Shown here piece after piece: positions 1 to 5,370 of a stretch of 64,000 bases of DNA. The DNA comes from Desulfuromonas sp. TF (GTDB lineage Bacteria > Desulfobacterota > Desulfuromonadia > Desulfuromonadales > ATBO01), in contig NZ_KI421420.1 in NCBI RefSeq assembly GCF_000472285.1, positions 3,480 through 67,479 of the forward strand, written 5' to 3'. The notes under the pieces were generated by a model. It was not told where the DNA came from. It did not search any database and saw only the letters and a list, made by a program, of their open reading frames with translations. Position 1 is the first letter of the stretch; every line of letters starts with the position of its first letter. Both the position numbers and the translations under genes were made by a program.

Positions 1-419
1 GCGAAGTTCCCCTTGCCGACCAGTTCGGTCTCCTCGGCGATGGTGACCCCGTCCTTGGTGACGTGCAGGCTGTAGAAGCAGTCTTTTTTAGGCAGTCCTT
101 CGATGATCAGCGCCTTGATCCCCAGGCGGGCGAACTGATGGGCCGAGGTGCCGCCGGCGTTGCTTTCCTTGATGGTGCCCGTCAGCGGGCTCTTGGCCCC
201 GCAGGACATGCGGCCGGACTGGGCGGCGGGGGTTCCGGAGAGCAGGCCCGGGGCGAAAACAAGCTTGTTGAGCTCTCCGAGGGGGTGACAGGTGGGCACG
301 ACCTCCTCGGCAACGATGGTCGAGGTCAGCCCGCGGCCGCCGAGTCCTGCCCACTTCTGGGGGACTTCTTCGACACAGGTGGTGAGGTCGGACATATTGA
401 CGCGAAAAATCTTATCCAT
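1..419 (-). CDS. aor: Aldehyde:ferredoxin oxidoreductase, N-terminal part (cut by window edge)
   Basis: The first 139 residues of an aldehyde:ferredoxin oxidoreductase, a tungsten-bis-pterin and [4Fe-4S] enzyme that interconverts aldehydes and carboxylates with ferredoxin. The N-terminal AFOR domain is clear from GGRGLTS near residue 27, APGLLSGT, SGRMSCGAKSPL and IKESNAGG. The iron-sulfur cysteines and most of the pterin-binding region lie outside the window; the family usually has about 600 residues. ATG at 419 follows a GGAAGGGAG ribosome site 9 bases upstream. The gene lies 205 bp downstream of an iron-type alcohol dehydrogenase on the same strand, so the pair could turn an alcohol into an acid via the aldehyde (inference). 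The nearby tungstate genes suit the metal need. Confidence 0.93.
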   Translation of the reverse strand, partial: MDKIFRVNMSDLTTCVEEVPQKWAGLGGRGLTSTIVAEEVVPTCHPLGELNKLVFAPGLLSGTPAAQSGRMSCGAKSPLTGTIKESNAGGTSAHQFARLGIKALIIEGLPKKDCFYSLHVTKDGVTIAEETELVGKGNF

Positions 420-581
420 TTTTTTATTCTCCCTTCCGGGGTTGACGAAACAAAATCTCCTTTCCGAAAGGGAGGCTCCGCCGTTTCCAGCGAAGCCCGT
501 TGGCCCTGCACCCTGGGACGTTTCCTTTAGGCGGCTGGGCTCGGAGATATCTATTGTTGTAGGGGCAGGTGGGGGAACTAT

Positions 582-624: not shown

Positions 625-1788
625 TTACATCGCCGCCTTGTAGACACCGACGACGCAGTCGAGGGTGGCGGTGCGGGGGTTGGTCAGCATGCAGGCGTCC
701 TTCATGGCGTTTTCGGCCATGATGCGCAGGTCGGTTTCCTGCACGTTGAGTTCTTTAAGGCCGGCCGGGATGCCGATGTCGGAGGAGAGCTGGCGGATGG
801 CGGCGATCCCTTTGGCGGCAGCATCAACATCCGAGAGTCCGTCGATGTTTTCGCCCATGGCCACGGCGATGTCGGCGAAGCGCTTGGGATTGGAGATCAT
901 GTTGAACTCGCAGACCGAAGGAAGCAGGATGGCGTTGCAGACGCCGTGGGGGAGGTTGTAGAAGCCGCCGAGCTGGTGAGCCATGGCGTGAACGTAGCCG
1001 AGGCTGGCGTTGTTGAAGGCCATTCCGGCGAGGTACTCGGCGTAAGCCATCTTGTCGCGGGCCTCGAGGTTCTTGCCGTTGGCCACGACCGGACGCAGCC
1101 ACTCGGCGATCAGCTCGATAGCCTTGATGGCGCAGGCGTCGGTGATCGGGGTGGCGATGGTGGAGACGTAGGCCTCGACGGCGTGGGTCAGGGCGTCCAT
1201 GCCGGTGGCGGCGGTCAGGGCGGCGGGTTTGCCGACCATGAGAACCGGGTCGTTGATGGCGATGTTGGGGGTGCAGCGCCAGTCGACAATGGCCATCTTC
1301 ACCTTGGTGTCGGTGTTGGTGATGATGCAGAAACGGGTCATCTCGCTGGCGGTGCCGGCGGTGGTGTTGATGGCGACGAAGGGGGGCATCGGCTTGATGG
1401 TTTTGTTGACCCCTTCGCAGTCGCGGATGTGTCCGCCGTTGGTGGCGACCATGCCGATCCCTTTGGCGCAGTCGTGAGAGCTGCCGCCGCCGAGGGAGAT
1501 GATCGAGTCGCACTTCTCGTCCTGATAGACCTTCAGGCCGTCATGCACGTTCTTGTCGGTGGGATTAGGCTCAGCGCCGTCGAATATGACGACGGAAACG
1601 CCGGCTTCCTCCACCTGCTTCTTGATCTGGTCGGCCATGCCGATTCCCGAGATTCCCTTGTCGGTAACCAGCAGCGCCTTCTTGGCGCCGAGTGCCTTCA
1701 CCTGCGCGCCGGTCTCCTTGGAGGAGCCGACACCCATGAGCGAAACGGTAGGGATGAAAAATCCGAAAGTCTGGTCTGCTAATGCCAT
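625..1788 (-). CDS. Iron-containing (group III) alcohol dehydrogenase
   Basis: A 387-residue NAD(P)-dependent alcohol dehydrogenase of the iron-activated family, the usual length. The Rossmann part carries the glycine-rich GGGSSHDCAKG near residue 100. The metal site reads from TGMDALTHA (D198, H202) and YVHAMAHQ...LPHG (H267, H281), by analogy with Zymomonas ADH II. ATG at 1788 follows a GGAGA ribosome site. A sigma-54 promoter sits about 90 bp upstream with paired inverted repeats further out, so expression is probably activator-dependent. The AOR gene follows on the same strand. Together they suggest oxidation of ethanol or another primary alcohol, or the reverse. Substrate cannot be read from sequence. 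Confidence 0.95.
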   Translation of the reverse strand: MALADQTFGFFIPTVSLMGVGSSKETGAQVKALGAKKALLVTDKGISGIGMADQIKKQVEEAGVSVVIFDGAEPNPTDKNVHDGLKVYQDEKCDSIISLGGGSSHDCAKGIGMVATNGGHIRDCEGVNKTIKPMPPFVAINTTAGTASEMTRFCIITNTDTKVKMAIVDWRCTPNIAINDPVLMVGKPAALTAATGMDALTHAVEAYVSTIATPITDACAIKAIELIAEWLRPVVANGKNLEARDKMAYAEYLAGMAFNNASLGYVHAMAHQLGGFYNLPHGVCNAILLPSVCEFNMISNPKRFADIAVAMGENIDGLSDVDAAAKGIAAIRQLSSDIGIPAGLKELNVQETDLRIMAENAMKDACMLTNPRTATLDCVVGVYKAAM

Positions 1789-2008: not shown

Positions 2009-2271
2009 GAAACGTCCTTTATTGTTCCCCTTGAGCTGGTTGTGCCGATCGGGTTTTGGTGAGGAACCCGACATATACTCTAAAAAAACGAGTTTGCGCC
2101 GCGGATTTCCATTTCCCACTGGACTTTCTCCCGCAGACGGGAACACCCTGCCGGACAGACTTCGTGATTCGATCGGAATTTATTTGTGGTAAAAAGAAGA
2201 ACAATTTTTTAGAATGGCGTATGGTTTGTGCATGAGAATTGCAAAACTGATTGATGCGAAAACATAAAACT

Positions 2272-2400
2272 CCGAACCGTACCGCCTAAGGGTCAGACCT
2301 ACGGCGGACGGTCCGGGCCCTGCTGGAAACGGCACGGCCTCCCATTGTGGAAAGGAGACCTCTGGCTTCGCATGTGCGTACAGGCGAAATCGGCAGGGCT
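2272..2400 (+). promoter_or_regulatory. Riboswitch-like leader, candidate molybdenum/tungsten cofactor aptamer
   Basis: Two adjoining folds precede tupB. Hairpin one (2272-2316) pairs ACCGT 2276-2280 with ACGGT 2308-2312 and CCGCC 2282-2286 with GGCGG 2303-2307. Domain two is closed by a 9-bp helix, 2317-2325 with 2391-2399 (GCCCTGCTG/CGGCAGGGC), and contains inner pairings such as GGCCTCC with GGAGACC and CTTCGC with GCGAAA. The 3' strand of the closing helix is also the 5' strand of an intrinsic terminator, so the two folds exclude each other. Position before a tungstate transporter and moeA, plus the GGCCTCCC...GGAAAGG core, suggests the Moco RNA class. That class match is from memory and not verified. 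Confidence 0.6.
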
Positions 2401-2424
2401 CTTCCACCAGGGAGAGCCCTTTTT
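2396..2424 (+). terminator. Intrinsic terminator in the tupBC leader
   Basis: GGGCTCT at 2396-2402 pairs perfectly with AGAGCCC at 2413-2419, followed directly by five T. It overlaps the 3' strand of the aptamer closing helix at 2391-2399, so it would form only when the aptamer is unfolded, or the reverse if ligand stabilises the aptamer. The predicted effect is control of read-through into tupB, tupC and moeA. Confidence 0.75.
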
Positions 2425-2575
2425 GATGGCGTCGCAAAAAGTTCGCCCTACGGCGTTACGGCGTTTTTTCAGGACCTCGACATACCTGATGTATGCCTTC
2501 GCCCCTGAAAAACCACCAAGCCTTGTAGGACGAAATTTTTGCTTAGCCATCTTCTGAGTTTTTGCGAGTGCATCC
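2424..2575. repeat. Long imperfect palindrome, dispersed element copy 1
   Basis: The outer ends GATGGCGTCGCAAAAA (2425-2440) and TTTTTGCGAGTGCATC (2559-2574) are near reverse complements. Inner arms such as TTTTTTCAGG and CCTGAAAAA also pair, so the whole stretch can fold into one long hairpin. Its right end, 2541-2574, recurs in reverse orientation at 22221-22255. It lies between the leader terminator and tupB and so would be part of the long 5' leader. Confidence 0.7.
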
Positions 2576-2612: not shown

Positions 2613-3299
2613 ATGGAGTTCCTGAGCGAATCGCTGCGCGCCGCCCTGGCGATGGTCCTAGCCGCCGACCGGGAGGTGGTGCATGCTGTCTGGACCTCCG
2701 TGTATACCTCGGGTTGCGCCATCGTCCTGGCGGCGCTGATCGGGATTCCCGCCGGCACCGGCCTCGGCCTCGGCCGCTTCGCCGGGCGACGGGCGGCGGT
2801 GACGGGGCTCAACACCCTGATGGCGCTGCCGACGGTGGTGATCGGGCTGGTCCTCTATGGCCTTCTCAGTCGCCAGGGGCCGCTGGGAGCGTGGGGCCTG
2901 CTCTTCACCCCGGCGGCGATGATCGTCGGCCAGACGGTGCTGGCGGCTCCGATCGTCGCCAACTACACCCTGGCGGCGGTCGCCGGCGCCGACCCCCGCA
3001 TCATGACGACGGCCCTGACCCTCGGGGCGGGTCGCTTCCGTGCCGTCTGGCAGTTGCTGCTGGAGATCCGCTTCGGCATCATCGCCGCCGTGGTCGCCGG
3101 TTTCGGACGGGTCATCGCCGAGGTGGGGGTGGCCATGATGCTCGGCGGGAACATCCGCGGCTACACGCGGACCATGACCACCGCCATCGCCCTGGAGACG
3201 AGCAAAGGGGAATTCGCCTTCGGCCTGGCCCTGGGAATCGTCCTTATGGCGGTGGCGCTTGTCGTGAATCTTTTTCTGAACCTGCTGCAGCAGCGATAG
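2613..3299 (+). CDS. tupB: Tungstate ABC transporter permease
   Basis: A 228-residue inner-membrane permease of the TupB type, with about five to six hydrophobic segments and the ABC coupling region around LGAGRFRAVWQLLLE (roughly residues 137-151). It would pair with the ATPase encoded directly after it to import tungstate delivered by a periplasmic TupA. No TupA gene is adjacent, which is unusual because tupABC is normally one operon. The ATG at 2613 has only a weak ribosome site. Sequence alone cannot exclude molybdate as the substrate, but the family and the AOR gene nearby favour tungstate. Confidence 0.88.
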   Translation: MEFLSESLRAALAMVLAADREVVHAVWTSVYTSGCAIVLAALIGIPAGTGLGLGRFAGRRAAVTGLNTLMALPTVVIGLVLYGLLSRQGPLGAWGLLFTPAAMIVGQTVLAAPIVANYTLAAVAGADPRIMTTALTLGAGRFRAVWQLLLEIRFGIIAAVVAGFGRVIAEVGVAMMLGGNIRGYTRTMTTAIALETSKGEFAFGLALGIVLMAVALVVNLFLNLLQQR

Positions 3300-3304
3300 C
3301 TCCT

Positions 3305-4003
3305 ATGGAATCGATTCTTGCCGTACACAATCTGGAGTATCGCCGCGGGGACGGGGATTTCGCCCTGACCATCGAGCGGCTTGAACTGTTCTCCGGAAGG
3401 GTTCATCTCCTTGCAGGTCCCAATGGGGCCGGCAAAAGCACCTTGCTTCAGCTCCTTGCCCTGCTGCTGCCGCCCGATCGGGGAGAGATCCTGTTCGCAG
3501 GCGCCGCCGTAAAGGGAGCGGTGCAGCGACATAAGCTGAGACAGCAGATCACCCTGGTCGAACAGTCCCCTTTCCTGTTCGACACCACCGTCAATGAAAA
3601 CCTCGCCTTTGGCCTGCGGCTGCGGGAAATCCGCGGCGATATGCAGCGTCACCGCATCGCCAGGGCTCTGCAGGCAGTCGGGCTGGAGGGTTTCGAATCC
3701 CGCCGCGCAAACACCCTCTCAGGCGGAGAGACGCGGCGGGTGGCCCTGGCCCGCGCCCTGGTCCTGAAACCCAAGGTCCTCCTCCTCGACGAGCCGACGG
3801 CCGGTCTCGACCGCGAATCTCTGCCCCTCTTCGAGAGCTGCCTGGCCGCCCTCCCCGGCACCGGGGTCTCCATCATCATCTCGACCCATGACATCGACCA
3901 GTCCCGCCGACTACAGGGACAGGTCCTCCACCTCGAAGCGGGCCGCCTGGTAGCGGCAGCCGTTCCGCCTTCCAAGTTCCGCACAATGGAGAGTTCCTCA
4001 TGA
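3305..4003 (+). CDS. tupC: Tungstate ABC transporter ATP-binding protein
   Basis: A 232-residue ABC ATPase. Walker A GPNGAGKST is at residues 38-46, the LSGGE signature near 135, Walker B VLLLDEPT near 157 and the switch histidine in STHD. It starts 5 bp after tupB and its TGA overlaps the ATG of moeA, so transport and metal insertion are translationally coupled. There is no C-terminal TOBE/Mop domain of the kind found in ModC; a separate single-domain Mop protein is encoded at 5371-5583. The frame is open further upstream across tupB, but that part is a shadow. Confidence 0.9.
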   Translation: MESILAVHNLEYRRGDGDFALTIERLELFSGRVHLLAGPNGAGKSTLLQLLALLLPPDRGEILFAGAAVKGAVQRHKLRQQITLVEQSPFLFDTTVNENLAFGLRLREIRGDMQRHRIARALQAVGLEGFESRRANTLSGGETRRVALARALVLKPKVLLLDEPTAGLDRESLPLFESCLAALPGTGVSIIISTHDIDQSRRLQGQVLHLEAGRLVAAAVPPSKFRTMESSS

Positions 4004-5217
4004 CCATCCGTTTCGAAGATGCCCGTTCCCTGATCCTGGAAAACGTCCCTACCCTCGGAGTTGAACGGGTGCCGCTTCTCGATGCCTCCGGGCGGGTCCT
4101 GGCCGAAGATGTCATCGCCCCCTGGCACATGCCCCTCAGCGACAACTCGGCCATGGACGGGTTCGCCGTACGTGCCGCCGACTGCGAAAGCGGAGAACCC
4201 CTCGTGATCACCGGCTACATCCCAGCCGGAGGCCGTCCCGAGCCGGCCGTGGTCTCCGGCGGTGCGGTCAAGATCATGACCGGGGCGCCCATTCCACCGC
4301 AGTGCGATGCCGTGGTTCCTTTCGAAGAGGCGGAGGAGTCGGGGGAGACGGTGCGAATTCTGGCGCCCGTGACCCTCCGGCAGCATATCCGCTTCCGCGG
4401 CGAGGACGTCTCCCCGGGAGACGTGATCATCCCGGCCGCCACCGTGATTCGCCCCCCCGAGGTCAGCATGCTCGCGTCCATGGGAATGGTGATGGTCCCC
4501 GTTCATCGCCGGGCGCGCGTCGCCATTCTTTCCACGGGGGACGAGCTCATCGAGCTTGGGCAGGCGCCGGCGGAGGGTAAGATCATCAACTCGAATTCCT
4601 TCTCCCTTGCTGCCGCGGTGCGGGAGTGCGGGGGCGAGCCGGTGATGCTCGGCATCGCCCTCGACACTCCCGAAGATCACCGGAAGAAACTGGCCGAGGG
4701 GCTCTCCTGCGACGCCCTGATCACCTCGGCCGGGGTGTCCGCCGGAGACCGCGACTTCGTCCGCGACGTGCTGGCCGATCTTGGGGTGAAGCAGCTCTTC
4801 TGGAAGGTCGCCATCAAGCCGGGAGGGCCGACCGCCTTCGCCCTCAAGGACCGCACCCCCGTCTTCTCCCTCCCCGGCAACCCGGTCTCCACCATGATCA
4901 CCTTCGAGGAGTTCGTCAGGCCGGCCCTGCTGAGAATGATGGGGCATCGCCGGGTGGTGCGCCCCTTCGTGAAGGCGACCCTGAAAGAGGACGCCAGGAA
5001 GAAGCCCGGCAAGGTCAATTTCATACGGGTGAGGGTGGAGATAAAGGAAGGGCGCTACATCGCCTCCACGGCCGGCGACCAGCACACCGGCATCCTGCGG
5101 ACGATGGTCAATGCCAACGGACTGGCCGTCCTGCCGCAGGAGGCCTCCTTTTTGCCTGCCGGCACCGAAGTGGATTTACAGATCCTGCGCGAAGAAGTGG
5201 CGATGCTGGAGAAATAG
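4000..5217 (+). CDS. moeA: Molybdopterin metal-transferase MoeA (copy 1, tungstate operon)
   Basis: A 405-residue MoeA, the enzyme that inserts molybdate or tungstate into adenylylated molybdopterin. Family landmarks are DNSAMDG near residue 48, KIMTGAP, SAGVSAGDRDFV near 245 and LPGNPVS near 293, followed by the C-terminal beta domain. Its start overlaps the tupC stop (ATGA at 4000-4003). A second MoeA is encoded at 20650-21858. Placement in the tungstate operon suggests this copy serves tungsten, as proposed for duplicated MoeA proteins in other tungsten users (inference). Confidence 0.95.
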   Translation: MTIRFEDARSLILENVPTLGVERVPLLDASGRVLAEDVIAPWHMPLSDNSAMDGFAVRAADCESGEPLVITGYIPAGGRPEPAVVSGGAVKIMTGAPIPPQCDAVVPFEEAEESGETVRILAPVTLRQHIRFRGEDVSPGDVIIPAATVIRPPEVSMLASMGMVMVPVHRRARVAILSTGDELIELGQAPAEGKIINSNSFSLAAAVRECGGEPVMLGIALDTPEDHRKKLAEGLSCDALITSAGVSAGDRDFVRDVLADLGVKQLFWKVAIKPGGPTAFALKDRTPVFSLPGNPVSTMITFEEFVRPALLRMMGHRRVVRPFVKATLKEDARKKPGKVNFIRVRVEIKEGRYIASTAGDQHTGILRTMVNANGLAVLPQEASFLPAGTEVDLQILREEVAMLEK

Positions 5218-5240
5218 GCGAATAGTGGCTGTGCACCCAT

Positions 5241-5366
5241 GTTTCAGGGCTGATCAAAAATGCCCAGGTGCAAGGCGGACGAAATCCTTCGGAATAAGGC
5301 GTACCTGCAAGGTACGTCGTTGACGAATGATGAGGACAACGCAGCAGATGGGCGTTTTTCATCAGC
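5241..5366. repeat. Dispersed palindromic element, about 130 bp, copy A
   Basis: An imperfect long inverted repeat whose ends read GCTGATCAAAAATGCCCAG and the complement of GCTGATGAAAAACGCCCATC. The middle contains GGCGTACCTGCAAGGTACG. The same element occurs in reverse orientation at 57752-57885. It fills the gap between the convergent moeA and mop genes and could fold in either transcript. Small open frames inside it are artefacts shared by both copies. Confidence 0.85.
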
Positions 5367-5370
5367 TCCT

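Follow-up and report, generated by a model that had tools for sequence, protein, structure and literature searches.

The window analyzed here, a 64,000-nucleotide stretch of the Desulfuromonas sp. TF genome, carries a structured leader in front of tupB-tupC-moeA, and the question that this locus raises is whether the leader senses the tungsten or molybdenum cofactor and halts expression of the transporter genes behind it. Searched against Rfam 15, the window gave only two matches above the gathering threshold, and each of them is to RF01055, the Moco/Tuco RNA family, whose covariance model the original prediction had named as the one to try. The match in the tupB leader lies at 2258-2373 on the plus strand, with a score of 67.1 bits (gathering 36, E 5e-14; cmscan) and an alignment that covers the full model, 1-135. 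Read onto the window, this alignment gives the following anatomy:

2258..2373, plus strand: RF01055 aptamer without P3 (cmscan; P2/P4 covariation, 140 homologues)
2270-2273/2354-2357, plus strand: aptamer P1 (Rfam alignment)
2276-2286/2303-2312, plus strand: aptamer P2, with its apical hairpin (Rfam alignment)
2315-2325/2330-2340, plus strand: aptamer P4, with a GAAA loop at 2326-2329 (Rfam alignment)
2341-2342/2349-2350, plus strand: aptamer P5 (Rfam alignment)

P1, P2, P4, P5 and the GAAA tetraloop on P4 are present both in this alignment and in the pair table of the 140 homologues, and P1 encloses the other three helices. P3 is missing: model columns 57-71 are deleted, leaving a spacing of 2 nt between P2 and P4. 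The aptamer had been proposed to close through a 9-bp helix, 2317-2325/2391-2399; this complementarity exists (nine pairs, one of them G-U), but it removes the 5' strand of P4 and therefore cannot be the closing helix, which is the P1 listed above. The predicted 5' hairpin at 2272-2316 also exists and is the normal P2; since P1 encloses it, it neither sits beside the closing helix nor marks a variant, the real variant feature being the absence of P3. The leader as a unit is likewise real, although a start at 2272 cuts away half of P1.

The covariation set comprised 140 full-length relatives, drawn from the source genome and 66 others of the order. These were aligned with MAFFT, which ignored structure, and the alignment was therefore not biased towards the model. 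Pairing in P2 and P4 is kept through many compensatory changes, as a genuine structured RNA had been expected to show: the first pair of P2 is G-C in 106 relatives, A-U in 27, C-G in four and U-A in three, and the inner pairs of P4 are mixtures of C-G, G-C and U-A. The conserved core among the 140 RNAs consists of CUCCGA, GGAAAC, CUCCC and GGAAAGGAG. The leader at 2258-2426 folds at -76.2, compared with -57.0 +/- 4.3 for 200 dinucleotide shuffles (z -4.5; below all 200). Every sequence feature tested places 2258-2373 in RF01055 and in the P3-less subtype of that family. A reading in which the leader is an ordinary attenuator or is bound by a protein, with the match a relic that no longer senses a cofactor, might appeal to the fact that direct binding of Moco or Tuco to this RNA class was not demonstrated, owing to the instability of the ligand (PMC2408646); set against the full-length match, the conserved core, the covariation and the gene context across 140 RNAs, we regard it as very improbable.

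Profile matches of the three downstream genes bear out the predicted tupB-tupC-moeA context:

2613..3299, plus strand: tupB-like tungstate ABC transporter permease (best equivalog NF041773 TupB at 204.9 bits, below its 320-bit cut-off; above the cut-off for NF038017; PF00528)
3305..4003, plus strand: tupC-like ABC ATPase (PF00005)
4000..5217, plus strand: moeA, for metal insertion into molybdopterin (PF03453, PF00994, PF03454)

The tupA gene is not in this operon and was found on contig C15 at 162198-162974 (L142), where it encodes a protein 70% identical to the TupA of a relative; another candidate on that contig, C15:3668, proved not to be TupA. The tup transporter genes thus occupy two separate loci, the operon in the window having tupB and the other tupA; the latter is a cluster of porin, tupA, tupC and HTH/substrate-binding genes that has no RF01055 RNA; a search of this second locus for a hidden copy gave none at E<=1. 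Directly after the terminator described below, where relatives have tupA, the window holds a repeat of about 150 bp (2424-2574) with inverted ends, GATGGCGTCGCAAAAA...TTTTTGCTTAGCCATC, of which dozens of full or partial copies occur genome-wide (44 matches). A further repeat-like intergenic stretch with long inverted arms lies 3' of moeA, at 5240-5370.

With the class settled, the identity of the metal can be considered. The P3-less form of this RNA class was described by Regulski et al. (2008) and correlated with users of the tungsten cofactor (PMC2408646): 58 of 176 RF01055 copies were without P3, and tungsten-cofactor genes were found in 17 of the 19 organisms with such copies. The source genome carries these genes as well (nine AFOR_C matches, TupA, and tupB/tupC), and its three RF01055 copies, the third of which is on contig C11, precede tupB-tupC-moeA and two AOR genes. 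We infer selectivity for tungsten over molybdenum from this published correlation and the gene context. Alternatively, the riboswitch class could be the same and the ligand the molybdenum cofactor, or both cofactors, with the lack of P3 carrying no information on the metal. The genome encodes enzymes for both metals (nine AOR-family matches and 12 matches to PF00384, molybdopterin oxidoreductase) and the organism therefore probably uses both. In addition, every RF01055 RNA of the phylum that was examined is without P3, the longer ones that were checked having extra bases in P2 rather than P3, so that loss of P3 could track lineage instead of ligand; and deletion of P3 from the E. coli RNA abolished regulation and did not switch it (PMC2408646). 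The fact that all three copies in this genome precede tungsten-linked genes, together with the association in 17 of 19 organisms, argues against this alternative, which we consider unlikely but a serious contender.

The original prediction also described an expression platform, with a perfect terminator stem at 2396-2402/2413-2419 followed by a T-run. Both are present, and the stem extends further, to 2395/2420 at its base. The platform has these elements:

2395..2425, plus strand: intrinsic terminator, stem 2395-2405/2410-2420 with T-run after it (fold analysis)
2347..2407, plus strand: predicted antiterminator, 2347-2365 (L5, P5, P1 3' strand and next bases) with 2390-2407 (minimum-energy folds of 2258-2410 and of the full leader; recurrence in relatives)
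2317..2399, plus strand: 9-bp helix 2317-2325/2391-2399, a real complementarity but a weaker alternative antiterminator, which breaks P4 and is not conserved

The folds thus predict, for the tupB leader, a terminator and an antiterminator that cannot coexist, the latter overlapping the aptamer. For the transcript 2258-2410, the unconstrained minimum of -67.0 kcal/mol has neither P1 nor P5, and 2347-2365, including the GGAG of P1, is paired to 2390-2407; forcing the aptamer raises the energy to -57.1 kcal/mol and forcing the 9-bp helix to -59.7 kcal/mol. In the full leader the free minimum is -76.2, against -72.8 for aptamer plus terminator, a small gap in these models that ligand binding could plausibly reverse. 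In 35 of the 49 terminator leaders of the order the terminator arm pairs predominantly with the P1 3' strand, compared with 43 of 294 when arms were shuffled, and this antiterminator is seen at least once in 10 of 15 families. When the aptamer is forced, the predicted terminator probability rises by more than 0.1 in 17 of the 49 leaders and falls in none (Wilcoxon 5e-6). A hairpin passing the threshold was found in 54 of 82 non-AOR leaders. The two strands of the P1-type antiterminator, GGAAAG and CUUUCC, are both nearly invariant within the order, and consequently no covariation backs the pairing there, own pairs being no better than swapped ones (permutation p 0.67).

The predicted platform therefore survives in its terminator, while its antiterminator probably uses the P1 3' strand in place of the 9-bp helix. 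The competing arrangement, in which the 5' strand of P4 captures the terminator arm through 2317-2325/2391-2399 and the output is still OFF, draws on two features of the tupB leader: the best 12-nt duplex of its terminator arm is with this strand (-19.7 kcal/mol), and its P4 is atypical, with a C-C mismatch and a C-G where relatives usually have U-G, as if drifting towards the pairing with 2391-2399. However, the whole-transcript energy disfavors it (-59.7 vs -67.0), and in none of the 49 leaders does the P4 5' strand dominate the pairing of the arm. We consider this arrangement rather improbable for the tupB leader, and the RF01055 alignment together with these two results rules out the 9-bp helix as P1 or as a conserved antiterminator.

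Pairing of the P1 3' strand with the terminator arm does not extend to the rest of the phylum, where this strand was dominant in only 2 of 15 leaders. Outside the order, L5 instead pairs with the loop or 3' arm of the terminator; in one example the L5 loop CCCGUGUUUGG is complementary to the terminator loop plus 3' arm, CCAAACACGGG. Matched changes in L5 and terminator occur here (CCGUAUUUGG/CCAAAUACGG and CCCGUGGU/ACCACGGG), and own L5/downstream pairs beat swapped ones (permutation p 1e-4, or 3e-4 when each genome contributes one).

In the tupB leader, the proposed ligand binding and direction of switching would run as follows. With cofactor bound, whether of tungsten or molybdenum, P1, P4 and P5 would hold and leave 2390-2407 free, so that the terminator at 2395-2420 could form and tupB-tupC-moeA would not be transcribed. 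In its absence P5 and P1 would open, and pairing of 2347-2365, with the GGAG of P1, to 2390-2407 would block the terminator and allow the uptake and metal-insertion genes to be made. The leader thus probably shuts off tungstate uptake at high cofactor, and cofactor-bound repression of the transporter genes, as first proposed, is the best-supported reading. A sigma-70-like promoter sought upstream of 2258 was not matched. Overall, we hold with considerable confidence that 2258-2426 is a riboswitch of the P3-less RF01055 form that would repress tupB-tupC-moeA through transcription termination, and that its sister RNA at 558-441 on the minus strand has the opposite predicted output.

This second match in the window scores 76.2 bits (cmscan), has its P3 columns deleted as well, and lies 1.7 kb from the first:

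441..558, minus strand: second P3-less RF01055 RNA, between the Fe-alcohol dehydrogenase and AOR genes (cmscan 76.2 bits)
429..474, minus strand: predicted Shine-Dalgarno-sequestering helix 474-464/439-429, 11 bp, which uses aptamer P5/L5 (minimum-energy fold; duplex -20.7 kcal/mol)
3..419, minus strand: start of the gene for AOR, the tungsten aldehyde:ferredoxin oxidoreductase, beginning at 419 (PF02730 AFOR_N)
625..1788, minus strand: Fe-containing alcohol dehydrogenase, upstream of the AOR riboswitch (PF00465, PF25137)

Just beyond position 1 of the window, near 3470-3480 of L005, the AOR frame contains an assembly artefact, a short N gap with a 25-residue duplication around it. No terminator was found in the AOR leader. 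Its minimum fold keeps P2 and P4 and loses P1 and P5, with CUCCCUUUCGG (474-464; the end of P4, P5 and L5) paired to CCGGAAGGGAG (439-429, the Shine-Dalgarno region of AOR); forcing the aptamer raises the predicted accessibility of the ribosome site from 0.18 to 0.42. Without ligand the P5/L5 helix would hide the AOR ribosome-binding site, and with ligand bound the site would be released. P5/L5 would thereby be the switching element of both leaders, with opposite outputs.

Across the 58 AOR leaders of the order there was no convincing terminator, the one hairpin that passed the threshold overlapping the P1 3' strand. Their Shine-Dalgarno regions match their own L5 better than that of other genomes (p 0.002), and UUU in L5 co-occurs with AAAGGG at the Shine-Dalgarno sequence (counts 19/5/3/31; Fisher 5e-8, uncorrected for relatedness). 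With the aptamer forced, 13 of the 58 gain more than 0.2 in predicted accessibility and four lose more than 0.2 (Wilcoxon p 0.058); in these models the ON logic is not uniform across the AOR leaders of the order. No helix between L5 and the Shine-Dalgarno region was found at the second AOR gene of the genome, on contig C11. ON control is therefore a reasonable inference for AOR leaders with a matched L5, including the copy in the window, and is unsupported for AOR of the C11 type.

Much of this has precedent. The P3-less 'Tuco' subtype shares with the RNAs in the window the sequence and structure of the full model and the absence of P3, and it likewise precedes transporter, moeA and tungsten-enzyme genes and has the terminator platform in common (PMC2408646). 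Terminator platforms, and mixed platforms among the copies of one genome, were already described, and Pelobacter carbinolicus, of the same order, is a published P3-less carrier whose RNA is also beside a transporter (PMC2408646). The E. coli moaA Moco riboswitch is of the same aptamer class as the tupB leader, with presumed repression by cofactor, but it has P3 and hides its ribosome-binding site in P1, acting on translation, while the tupB leader would act by transcription termination; in the AOR leader, by contrast, the ribosome site is not part of P1 and has P5/L5 as its pairing partner. For the tupB-leader RNA, what is new is the copy, the host organism and the details of the platform, the RNA class being known. 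The text of PMC2408646 mentions repression alone, and an activating platform before AOR genes is absent from it. A search of open-access papers for AOR or tungstate with RF01055 returned only PMC2408646 and reviews, and no report was found in that literature of a switching strand shared by both platforms or of an ON platform before AOR, an absence that argues only weakly for novelty.

Other genes behind RF01055 RNAs in the order encode OprO/P-type porins, a TonB receptor, an acetylating acetaldehyde dehydrogenase and a succinate-semialdehyde-type dehydrogenase. The RNAs before the TonB-dependent receptor and porins, some of them tandem, are at L039 58-1953, L045 549-1802, L079 384-1682 and L057 589-1836, and these proteins are candidate outer-membrane routes for tungstate. 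Those before the two dehydrogenase genes are at L051 456-1802 and L118 420-1880; each type is confined to one genus of the order surveyed, and the succinate-semialdehyde-type gene is preceded by a clear terminator and a P1-type antiterminator. We take both enzymes to be tungsten-free aldehyde dehydrogenases, and they are therefore possible substitutes for AOR when tungsten is scarce. Two weak matches in one genome (L131, L132), upstream of a TetR-like gene and without the P1 3' strand, are probably decayed copies.

Taken together, and with slightly less than even confidence, these observations may describe a two-way tungsten-economy circuit in the Desulfuromonadales, built on P3-less RF01055 RNAs. 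Their switching strand, P5/L5 and the 3' side of P1, would act on a terminator ahead of moeA and of genes for uptake, porins and TonB receptors (OFF), and on the ribosome-binding site of the AOR gene (ON); a few genera would also have tungsten-free aldehyde dehydrogenases, which could replace AOR at low tungsten, under the OFF form. Since 2008 the instability of the ligand has stood in the way of establishing whether this RNA class senses the tungsten cofactor. The window pairs two P3-less RNAs of predicted opposite outputs, 1.7 kb apart, beside a tungsten transporter and a tungsten enzyme. The tupB and AOR leaders should respond to tungstate in opposite directions, which would give an internally controlled view of both sensing and metal selectivity with no handling of the ligand.
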